NCBI GenBank assembly: GCA_025041175.1 | Contig: JAKCFJ010000002.1 | Location: 124,001 to 188,000, forward strand | Source: Halobacteriales archaeon YIM A00010 | GTDB taxonomy: Archaea; Halobacteriota; Halobacteria; Halobacteriales; Haloarculaceae | DNA: 64,000 bases | Direction: 5' to 3' | Part shown: positions 39,303 through 46,240 of the stretch, piece by piece | Position numbering within the stretch: the first letter of the stretch is position 1 | Layout: each line of letters begins with the position of its first letter | The notes under the pieces: generated by a model | Seen by the model: only the letters and a program-made list of their open reading frames with translations | The model's database searches: none | What the model was told of the DNA's origin: nothing | Made by a program: the position numbers and the translations under genes

Positions 39303-39589
39303 TACCCGCCTCAACGGTTGTTTCGACCAGATCGGCGTGGGTTTTGTGGAGCGGGAAGCAACACCGCAACTGTTGATGACGCTCGGTATTTAGATCCATC
39401 TTACGCACTCATCACTCTCAAATACTGTTTCTGATATTGGTATATCCGGTGTTGAACGGGCTCGTTCGACCGTTCACGACTGGGTTCACACGGCCGATCC
39501 CCAGCCCGAGGATGGACGAAGCCTGGATCACGTTGTCGTCAATGAAAACCGTGATCTGACGCAATGACGGGCAGTAGTGGCTGTATGCT

Positions 39590-39855
39590 GTCGCCGGCCT
39601 GCGGCCGGCTGCCCGAGACGCGTAGCGTCTCGCTGTCGCCAGAAATCGGAGATTTCTGGTGATGTCGTCGGGCTGCGCCCGACTGTTACCGGCCGTAGGC
39701 CGGTTGCCCGAGGAACGTTGTTCCTCGCTGCTTGAGGCGCGTAGCGCCTCTCTGTCGCCAGGCGAAGCCTGGCTGCTAGCCAAAACCTTCGGTTTTGGCG
39801 ATGTCACCAGAACTCAAAATTTCTGGTTGCCCCACGAGACTTTGCTCTCGTGACT
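39590..39855. repeat. Palindrome array 1 (11 hairpins)
   Basis: 266 bases, almost entirely palindromes. Each is two 6-9-base arms around a mostly 3-base loop, joined by 4-8-base linkers. Examples: GAGACGC-GTA-GCGTCTC (39615-39631), CCAGAAATC-GGA-GATTTCTGG (39639-39659), GTCGGGC-TGC-GCCCGAC (39667-39683), GAGGAAC-GTT-GTTCCTC (39710-39726), CCAAAACC-TTC-GGTTTTGG (39780-39798). Stem sequences differ among units but arms stay matched. It interrupts the transposase codons between WLYA and AVDP; the other copy is uninterrupted there. Confidence 0.9.
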
Positions 39856-39969
39856 GCGGTCGATCCCGAAACAAACGAATTGCTCCCCACAACGCTTGAG
39901 ACGACCACAACCACGATTCTCGCTCATTCATTTCTTACTGGACTCGCCGAGAAACACGATGGTGACGAT

Positions 39970-40242
39970 AACTCGAGAACTGCATGCAGTTCTCGTGGGC
40001 ACGCAAGACCGAAGGTCTTGCGAACGTCCCCAGAAGCCTTCGGCTTCTGGTGTGCGAACGAGACGCTTTGCGTCTCGTCAACGTCGCCGGAACTCTCCGA
40101 GTTCCGGCTGCCGACAAGAGCTACGCTCTTGTCAACGTCGCCGGACTACGTCCGGCTGGCTCGAAAGACTCTCCCCATCTTTCGAACGACCCCAGAAATC
40201 GTTGACTTCTGGTTGGTCCACAAGACTATCAGTCTTGTGAAC
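39970..40242. repeat. Palindrome array 2 (10 hairpins)
   Basis: 273 bases. Begins with the 22-bp perfect palindrome CGAGAACTGCA/TGCAGTTCTCG (39974-39995), then CGCAAGACC-GAA-GGTCTTGCG, CCAGAAGCC-TTC-GGCTTCTGG, ACGAGACGC-TTT-GCGTCTCGT, CCGGAACTC-TCC-GAGTTCCGG, ACAAGAGC-TAC-GCTCTTGT and GCCGGAC-TAC-GTCCGGC. Two weaker units follow, then CACAAGACT-ATC-AGTCTTGTG (40219-40239). Two hairpin types alternate with linkers like AACGTCG and TGCC, giving a composite period of 53-58 bases. Confidence 0.9.
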
Positions 40243-40465
40243 GCTGTGTTTCTCGTTGAGGGCTCACACTCAGTACCTGAAGTCAGGCAGGTGGCCCAGT
40301 AATGCATAATCCAGACGTTCTTTCTAGCCGTTTTCCCGACAGCGAAAACTGACGCCGACCCAAACCAGGTCGTCATTTTGGAATCTCTCGGATATGGCGT
40401 GAAACAAAGCAGCCTGACACAGTGCCGCCACTCATGATTCGGGCGAATACAGGGGGAGTCTGGCG

Positions 40466-40738
40466 TTAGTCAGGCGGATCGAGACTGTACCACCGCTTGG
40501 CGACCGTCAGAAACTGGTTCGCGTCCACCAGCGGCGCATACGTCCTGTTCTCGCCGTCGATGGTGAGTTTCACCAGCAAATCGACGAATCGCCAGACGTT
40601 GTACAGCACGCACGCGAACGCGACGTTGAAAAAGCGGTAGTCGCGCTCGGTCGAGGTCGTCTGGACCATGAAGTGTTTCCGAGGAGAAGTATCCGCCGCC
40701 GACCGATTCGTTCGGAAATCGAACCCCCTGAACGACGT
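40466..40738 (-). pseudogene. Transposase C-terminal remnant (DDE type, probably IS4-like)
   Basis: An open frame on the minus strand. Its end (RFFNVAFACVLYNVWRFVDL, then VDANQFLTVAKRWYSLDPPD) resembles the C-terminal part of haloarchaeal IS4-like transposases. The catalytic N-terminal two thirds are missing, so it is a dead fragment. Family placement is from memory of such tails and could be another DDE group. Confidence 0.55.
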
Positions 40739-40754
40739 GGGCCTAACCCTCTGT

Positions 40755-40791
40755 GAGGGAAGCCCACGAGTTCACTCGTGGGAGTAGTCAC
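40755..40791 (+). mobile_element. IS200/IS605 (TnpB-type) right-end remnant
   Basis: GGGAAGCCCACGAG is followed by the hairpin CCCACGAG-TTCA-CTCGTGGG (40763-40782) and AGTAGTCAC. This layout (AAGCCCAC, hairpin, terminal GTCAC) is typical of the right end of haloarchaeal TnpB elements, which overlaps the 3' end of the guide RNA. No tnpB gene remains beside it. Confidence 0.5.
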
Positions 40792-40857
40792 AACAGAGGT
40801 CGTGGTACCGTGACTCTCGGAAGTGTTATGCGTCACTGGGGACAATGTCTGTTCGCA

Positions 40858-41064
40858 ATGGCAAACGGTAAGGTTGATTTCTTCAACGACACTGGCGGTT
40901 ACGGTTTCATTTCGACTGACGACGACGATGTAGACGACGACGAGGACGTGTTCTTCCACATGGAGGACGTTGGTGGTCCGGATCTGGAAGAGGGTCAAGA
41001 AGTCGAGTTCGACATCGAATCATCCCCGAAGGGACCCCGCGCGACGAACCTCGTCCGCAACTAA
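40858..41064 (+). CDS. Cold-shock domain protein (CspA-like)
   Basis: 68 residues. Single-stranded nucleic-acid-binding OB fold: GKVDFFNDTGGYGFIS (RNP1-like), DVFFHMEDV (RNP2-like), then EEGQEVEFDIE. Length equals that of bacterial and haloarchaeal CspA. An acidic insert (DDDDVDDDED) between the motifs is a haloarchaeal adaptation. Start ATG 40858 with TGTTATGC about 30 bases upstream; a longer frame to 40753 runs through a mobile-element remnant and is rejected. Intact among remnants. Confidence 0.92.
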   Translation: MANGKVDFFNDTGGYGFISTDDDDVDDDEDVFFHMEDVGGPDLEEGQEVEFDIESSPKGPRATNLVRN

Positions 41065-45460: not shown

Positions 45461-46240
45461 ACTGTTCAGATACGGATGAAGGTCGAGGCGGGACGATATT
45501 CTGATGATCTATGGCAGAAATCGCCCGCTTCGGTGGTTGTAGCGACTGTATGGAAGTAGATTTTGTGGAGTGCGAAGCGACACCGGAGCCGCTGATGAAG
45601 CTGGGTATTCGCCTTCACTTGGCAGGGCTGTCACTTTTGAATACTATCTCTGAACTCGAACGATTTGGTGTCGATCGACCCAAATTAACTGTCCATAACT
45701 GGGTGCAGAAAGCCGAGCTACAGCCCGAGGAAGAGCAGGATCCGGATCACAGTGCGGTTGACGAGACAGTGATCCAGATCGATGACCAGCGGTACTGGCT
45801 GTATGCAGCTGTCGACCCAAAACAAACGAATCCCTCCATGTAAAACTGATAACCGCGCAAAACACCGGTCTTTCAGATCTCTTTTCAGCGAATTGAAAGA
45901 GAAACACGACGTCTCCGACGTCTCGAGAACTGCATGCAGTTCTCGTGGGCTCACAAGACCTTCGGTCTTGTGAACGCCGTGTTTTTCGTCGATAGAGCGC
46001 TGTGGCTTCAGCAAGCAGTTCGTCGCCATGGACGTACCGTTCGTCATGAAACGCACGGACAACGAAATACGATCGAACGCCTCTATAAAGAGATCAAACG
46101 ACGAACTAACCAACTTTCAATCACTTCTTCCACCTCGATCCGATGACTGCTGAAACATGGCTTCGTGCTCGAGCCTTCTGCCAAAATCAGCTAATCTGAA
46201 CAATGCTTCGCATGGAATCAGCTAATCTGAACACTACGGT
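45461..46240 (+). pseudogene. IS6-type element remnant 2 with transposase pieces
   Basis: Transposase start MAEIARFGGCSDCMEV at 45511, open to 45843, then out of frame: SLFSELKEKHDVSD (about 45880-45919), a two-hairpin array, AVFFVDRALWLQ and HETHGQRNTIERLYKEIKRRT (45976-46115), and TAETWLRARAFCQNQLI ending at 46196. Ends resemble inverted repeats: left TGTTCAGAT (about 45465), right ATCTGAACA, present twice (46192-46205 and 46228-46238). It carries a DDE transposase but is inactive. Confidence 0.8.
45920..45975. repeat. Palindrome array 3 (2 hairpins)
   Basis: 56 bases: the perfect 22-bp palindrome CGAGAACTGCA/TGCAGTTCTCG (45924-45945), then CACAAGACC-TTC-GGTCTTGTG (45952-45972). It is inserted between the codons for VSD and AVFFVD. 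The insertion point, the first hairpin and the final hairpin type match array 2, which has eight extra hairpins between. Confidence 0.9.

Follow-up and report, generated by a model that had tools for sequence, protein, structure and literature searches.

How can two stretches of archaeal DNA consist almost entirely of small hairpins whose stems differ from one hairpin to the next, and whose two arms still match each other? This question is raised by a window of 64,000 nucleotides (the whole stretch of DNA that was analysed) from Halobacteriales archaeon YIM A00010. The host genome of the window is haloarchaeal and has a size of 6.0 Mb, and a protein encoded near the arrays is 94% identical to a Halocatena marina protein. 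The hairpins are grouped in two arrays.

The hairpin arrays and their two-hairpin unit

39591..39856, + strand: array 1, 11 hairpins in 266 bp, with unit ends that are mostly (C)TG
39591..39754, + strand: array-1 units that are probably newer and added at the left boundary; the block partly recurs at three other loci (L014, L015, L016)
39755..39856, + strand: older part of array 1, common to another IS copy (L012), whose array consists of this part only; 89% match over query positions 164-380
39971..40243, + strand: array 2, five tandem A-B units in 273 bp, with AACG closing every unit
40027..40083, + strand: canonical 57-bp unit, TCC-A-TGTGCGA-B-CAACG; 87.3 bits with the covariance model R1
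40189..40243, + strand: last array-2 unit, with one mismatch in hairpin A; 37.7 bits with R1

A strict scan for hairpins (arms of at least 6 bases, loops of 3-4) finds 9 perfect hairpins in direct succession in array 1 and 7 in array 2; local shuffles of the window contain no run of even 3. Slightly decayed hairpins lie at 39806-39827 and 39834-39852 in array 1, and at 40160-40186, 40192-40212 and 40219-40239 in array 2. With these included, the totals of 11 hairpins in 266 bases and 10 in 273 bases given by an earlier sequence-only reading both hold. The DNA of the arrays folds with z scores of -11.8 (array 1) and -12.7 (array 2) relative to dinucleotide shuffles, and none of 200 shuffles folds as well. 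The alternation of two hairpin classes and of their linkers, described in the same reading, is real. Its statement that nearly all arms match their partners exactly is mostly correct, with unpaired changes in the last hairpin pair of array 1 and in the hairpin at 40192-40212. It also described the stems as not being copies of each other. The stems do vary, but the outer stem, the linkers and the ends follow a consensus, and because these parts share a consensus the arrays constitute a repeat family.

The arrays are modular. The unit consists of TC, hairpin A, a short linker, hairpin B and AACG, with a canonical length of 57 bp and the consensus TCC-CCAGAAnnC-NNN-GnnTTCTGG-TGTGCGA-ACGAGAnnC-NNN-GnnTCTCGT-CAACG. 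Its ends (TCCCC and CAACG) do not form an inverted repeat. When array 2 is cut between AACG and TC, it resolves into units of 56, 57, 54, 51 and 55 bp that add up to its 273 bp. Array 1 is built from a sister unit type that mostly ends in CTG. Fifteen unit instances from many genera can be aligned without gaps, and the alignment contains 25 double-changed cells compared with 7.6 in shuffles.

Plain sequence searches detect the unit family poorly, and copies were located through a combination of similarity and model searches. The unit is spread across the class: R1 has 88 matches in the host genome and finds matches in 139 of the 145 haloarchaeal genomes. An assembly artefact is ruled out because the unit occurs in so many genomes. 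Outside the class, a phylum-wide sample yields R1 matches in only three genomes of one genus (G233, G242 and G249 of genus g104, with 13, 3 and 9 matches), possibly as a result of lateral transfer. Phage records contain no unit match, and a phage origin was dropped; the Haloquadratum plasmid PL47 has no R1 match either. A CRISPR array, with identical direct repeats and unique spacers of constant length, was also rejected, as the region has only one 8-base direct repeat. A search of the arrays against Rfam returned no family at threshold and nothing convincing.

Insertion sites and the association with IS200/IS605-type elements

Both arrays are inserted in a single decayed gene for an IS6-type transposase. 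The DNA to the left of, between and to the right of the arrays (HVVVNEN..., VDPETNELL...LAEKHD and VFLVEGSHS) belongs to this one gene according to tblastn, Pfam and an alignment with 12 further copies of the IS6-type gene from the host genome.

39310..39590, + strand: 5' part of the decayed IS6-type transposase gene (tblastn to a DDE_Tnp_IS240 transposase; nucleotide alignment with 12 copies)
39588-39590, + strand: CTG, the left flank of array 1 and end of the 5' part of the gene
39857..39970, + strand: middle part of the gene, VDPETNELL...LAEKHD (alignment with 12 copies)
40244..40302, + strand: 3' remnant of the gene, VFLVEGSHS... (alignment with 12 copies)
45921..45976, + strand: one-unit version with 2 hairpins in a second IS6-type copy (45541-46120); 35.5 bits with R1

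Both sites exist in empty and filled forms. Array 1 is inserted at TATGCTG^CGGTCGATCC (the caret marks the insertion point); this site is empty in 11 gene copies (TACGCTG^CGGTTGATCC) and filled in L012 and others. The array-2 site exists in several states, being empty in 6 copies, occupied by one two-hairpin unit in 6 and occupied by five units in the window. Since L012 carries the last part of array 1 only, array 1 in the window has probably been extended on the left by additional units, loss in L012 being the alternative. The second IS6-type copy (45541-46120) is diverged and carries one unit at the homologous codon with an identical A hairpin, a sequence present in the host genome only, among the 145. 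On the left, the unit with this hairpin is flanked by CG in the second copy and by TG in the other IS6 family; on the right, it ends in AACG in both. Because the left flanks differ while the right end is the same, insertion appears to take place without target duplication.

The target is well defined. Its logo, CG^CC, is supported by 28, 27, 25 and 24 of 29 flanks at the four positions, and CG^TC, with the CG coming from the target, precedes hairpin A at nearly all sites. An exact pattern search finds the predicted empty target, GGGGATACAGCG^CCG, at 56 places. The empty near-terminal palindrome TTCACnCCCG^CC(G/C)TnAA(C/G)GGCGGG, which the unit splits at TTCACnCCCG^CCGTnAACGGCGGG, is found as an exact pattern at 24 places. 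The reversed-pattern control gave 0 in each case. Their context identifies the empty targets as the leader and near-terminal palindrome of IS200/IS605-type elements. At 18 of 28 loci of other genomes, IS605-type genes are found no more than 1.5 kb from a unit, compared with 8 of 200 control windows, the controls being drawn from the host genome. On annotated plasmids, units are found about 110 bp upstream of an intact tnpA. In the host genome, units also interrupt TnpB at codons of conserved motifs (VLGIDLG^VNSLAV and HADYN^AAKN) and disrupt the reading frame (L078, L079, L080, L085). A coding constraint as a general rule, suggested by units of 57, 54 and 51 bp, was rejected, as units of 55 and 56 bp shift or stop TnpB frames (L078-L080).

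An enzyme of the DDE or integrase type that duplicates 2 bp (CG) when it inserts the unit would account for the CG found at both the left flank and the right end in nearly all sites. Such a duplication is excluded solely through a few left flanks other than CG. In one insertion, the left flank is TG and the right end AACG in all copies; in another, at L018, CAG precedes the unit and the right end is again AACG. Moreover, the unit has no terminal inverted repeats, and an enzyme of this type is quite improbable.

It is also improbable that the arrays grew only by slippage or unequal recombination of an old repeat, with no transposition. Near-identical multi-unit blocks do recur at several places, and a comparison of array 2 with L013 looks like a block indel. 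However, the units inside one array differ from each other, and the same unit is present at homologous codons of two diverged IS6-type genes. Single units, furthermore, occupy numerous distinct CG^CC sites across many genera.

Hairpins are also found in other contexts. One block of four hairpins is inserted in frame, close to the C-terminus of an otherwise intact chromosomal gene, presumably MaoC-like (L016 8142-8225; G000:C1 about 1948133-1948228), and orthologues of this gene in sister species are without the block. The coding regions of two Y1 transposase genes (L061 and L062, G000:C1) apparently contain in-frame hairpin insertions, respectively about 20 and 14 residues long. In the window, the sequence at 40730-40790 (GAAGCCCACGAGTTCACTCGTGGGAGTAGTCAC) is similar to the right end of an IS605-type element and lies just upstream of a cold-shock-like gene (ORF 40753-41064).

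Paired stem changes and loop inversions

Stem changes between homologous copies are mostly paired. A comparison of homologous array segments with an unselected subject yields 1212 paired, 311 one-sided and 19 two-sided unpaired differences between arm pairs, counts that are not independent. The rate of one-sided change is 1.45% per arm base; linkers differ by 9.9% and loops by 57.7%. Paired changes also exceed one-sided changes in close copies of at least 88% identity (74 vs 22). The sequence-only reading had proposed pairing of the changes as a check, and it regarded independent mutation of the arms in relatives as evidence against itself. Independent mutation does occur, but weakly, as the one-sided counts indicate.

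The tips of the hairpins are far from random. Of the 236 hairpins that occur in pairs or arrays, 235 are closed by a C-G pair. GNA tips number 88 and tips with the reverse complement, TNC, number 77, which makes 165 of 236 or 70%; the C[NNN]G sequences of this DNA would lead one to expect 18%. Mixed tips (GNC and TNA) total only 6. Minihairpins of the form d(C-GNA-G) are unusually stable. Where the arms are identical and the loop changes its strand class, 55 of 85 changes are exact inversions compared with 43% expected (p = 6e-5, the counts again not being independent), and among the closest copies (at least 88% identity) the fraction is 23 of 31. Examples are TTC to GAA between L041 and L120, and GGA to TCC and TTC to GAA between L071 and L018.

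The earlier proposal was that either selection on folding or the rewriting of one arm from the other keeps the stems. The paired changes indicate that the fold, and not a fixed sequence, is kept, and the loop inversions favour a rewriting process similar to template switching. In inverted repeats, template switching is reported to homogenise the arms and invert the spacers (PMC8604942; see also PMC8794818). A flip of the whole palindrome during transposition would have the same outcome. The loop flips could also reflect exchange between units instead of inversion, and selection alone could keep the GNA tip.

Pure selection, in which a hairpin-binding protein keeps the stems, the loops are free and no arm is rewritten, is unlikely, though it deserves some weight. 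The conserved bases of the outer stem and linkers resemble a binding site. However, the loops are not free, given the predominance of GNA and TNC and the near absence of mixed tips. Exact inversions account for a larger share of the strand flips than expected, and the excess of paired changes is already evident in close copies.

The paired changes and strong folding could alternatively reflect a functional RNA, such as a regulatory leader, an omega-RNA-like molecule or a processed hairpin array, whose stems covary through selection on the RNA fold. Many units are indeed located upstream of tnpA or tnpB. This explanation is nevertheless very improbable. There is no Rfam match, units are also found inside genes and relatives have empty sites. 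G-T pair intermediates are rare, at 2 of 18 one-sided changes. Because GNA and its complement are about equally common (88:77), a single RNA strand is disfavoured, and the ratio suits a DNA hairpin that forms on either strand.

A candidate mechanism and its known relatives

We consider it probable that the arrays are tandem stacks of a tiny, non-autonomous, single-strand hairpin element similar to REPINs and PATEs, which recreates its own target and has homogenised stems and inverted loops. An element with two hairpins, A and then B, would enter the DNA directly 3' of a short motif, in most cases CG (CG^CC), and would not duplicate the target. As the right end of the unit repeats the target motif, every inserted copy would create a new target at its edge. 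Additional copies, or blocks of several units, could insert at this new target and so build up an array. Mobilisation would involve single-stranded DNA and an IS200/IS605 enzyme of the Y1 type (HUH) acting in trans, as for REPINs and PATEs. This mechanism is suggested by the lack of duplication, the short target motif and the paired subterminal hairpins. Template switching between arms may homogenise the arms and invert the spacer, and hairpins may be copied or flipped whole. The C-GNA-G tip may be retained by selection for easy folding.

The number of units correlates with the number of Y1 transposases (rho 0.33, p = 6e-5, medians 6 and 3, with kinship ignored). No Y1 transposase match is present in 45 of the 145 genomes; most of these still carry units, and seven of them carry at least 10. 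No full-length element bounded by A on one side and B on the other, with a transposase between them, was found in the examined loci, which were chosen by the pair model. Because of these seven genomes and the missing parent element, the Y1 enzyme is put forward only as a candidate. A more speculative reading, somewhat less likely than not, is that a class-wide archaeal element is continually rewritten. Its hairpins would be flipped or copied whole, so that the stems diversify only in matched pairs and the tip inverts, and an easily folding single-stranded DNA tip (C-GNA-G) on either strand would be required for enzymatic mobility.

A tiny mobile element that is carried by nearly all haloarchaeal genomes examined (139/145), prefers IS605-type elements and is poorly visible to plain sequence search also provides a natural setting for testing how DNA hairpins remain perfect. 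Since many natural replicates of homologous hairpins exist, the choice between compensatory selection and template switching in stem maintenance is directly testable.

The sequence-only reading saw the arrays as the reverse of a conserved repeat and knew of no named element of this form. This view has to be abandoned: there is a mobile two-hairpin unit with a consensus, which almost all haloarchaea carry and which shares its target class with the PATE and SMR elements of Haloquadratum (PMC3119063). In the literature searched, which was not exhaustive, we found no description of the unit or of its arrays.

Several known elements are similar to the unit. The PATEs (palindrome-associated transposable elements) of Haloquadratum walsbyi and the SMR-A elements (short mobile repeats) of Haloquadratum are transposase-free, cause no duplication and are tied to IS605-type elements, and 52-bp PATEs that consist of termini only appear to be mobile (Dyall-Smith et al. 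2011, PMC3119063). Like PATEs, the unit is haloarchaeal and non-coding (57 bp is too short to code), has palindromes near both ends, makes no target duplication and is tied to IS605-type elements (PMC3119063). It differs from PATEs in its own A/B consensus, its copy-specific stems with paired changes and its tandem arrays, and no parent transposon with its ends was found in the examined loci, chosen by the pair model. SMR-A elements enter the near-terminal palindromes of IS605-type elements and PATEs, and their mobilisation is enigmatic (PMC3119063). The unit also inserts without duplication in near-terminal palindromes of IS605-type elements, the empty form of which was found at the 24 places described above. 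SMR-A elements, however, are about 110 bp long with prominent terminal inverted repeats, whereas the unit has 57 bp and two internal hairpins; this separation is based on their description (PMC3119063).

REPINs and BIMEs, which are mobilised by RAYTs, resemble the unit in being mobile and two-hairpinned, with alternating classes and linkers and tandem clusters (PMC3116915, PMC2817692). In contrast to them, the unit consensus has no GTAG tag, no flanking RAYT was found and the stems are far more variable; genomes without a Y1 match (45/145) mostly carry units. The CGTC-tagged REPs of bacteria, which include Rickettsia elements, also lack a transposase (Di Nocera et al. 2013, PMC3733652). They share with the unit short stem-loops, a CGTC-like tag (the unit has an unpaired CG^TC 5' of the stem), head-to-head dimers, locations inside genes and the lack of a known transposase (PMC3733652). 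In contrast to the unit, these bacterial REPs have loops of 4-5 bases, their own stem consensus, stems that start with A-T, a CCA tail and only rare clusters (PMC3733652); the unit has 3-base C-GNA-G tips, A stems that start with C-G C-G and a CAACG tail.

SMR-A and CGTC-tagged REPs each have at least one defining feature that the unit lacks, and for a PATE the parent transposon is missing. The PATEs and SMR-A of Haloquadratum and the bacterial CGTC-tagged REPs are nevertheless its closest known kinds, and the unit may explain the enigmatic mobilisation of SMR and PATE elements.
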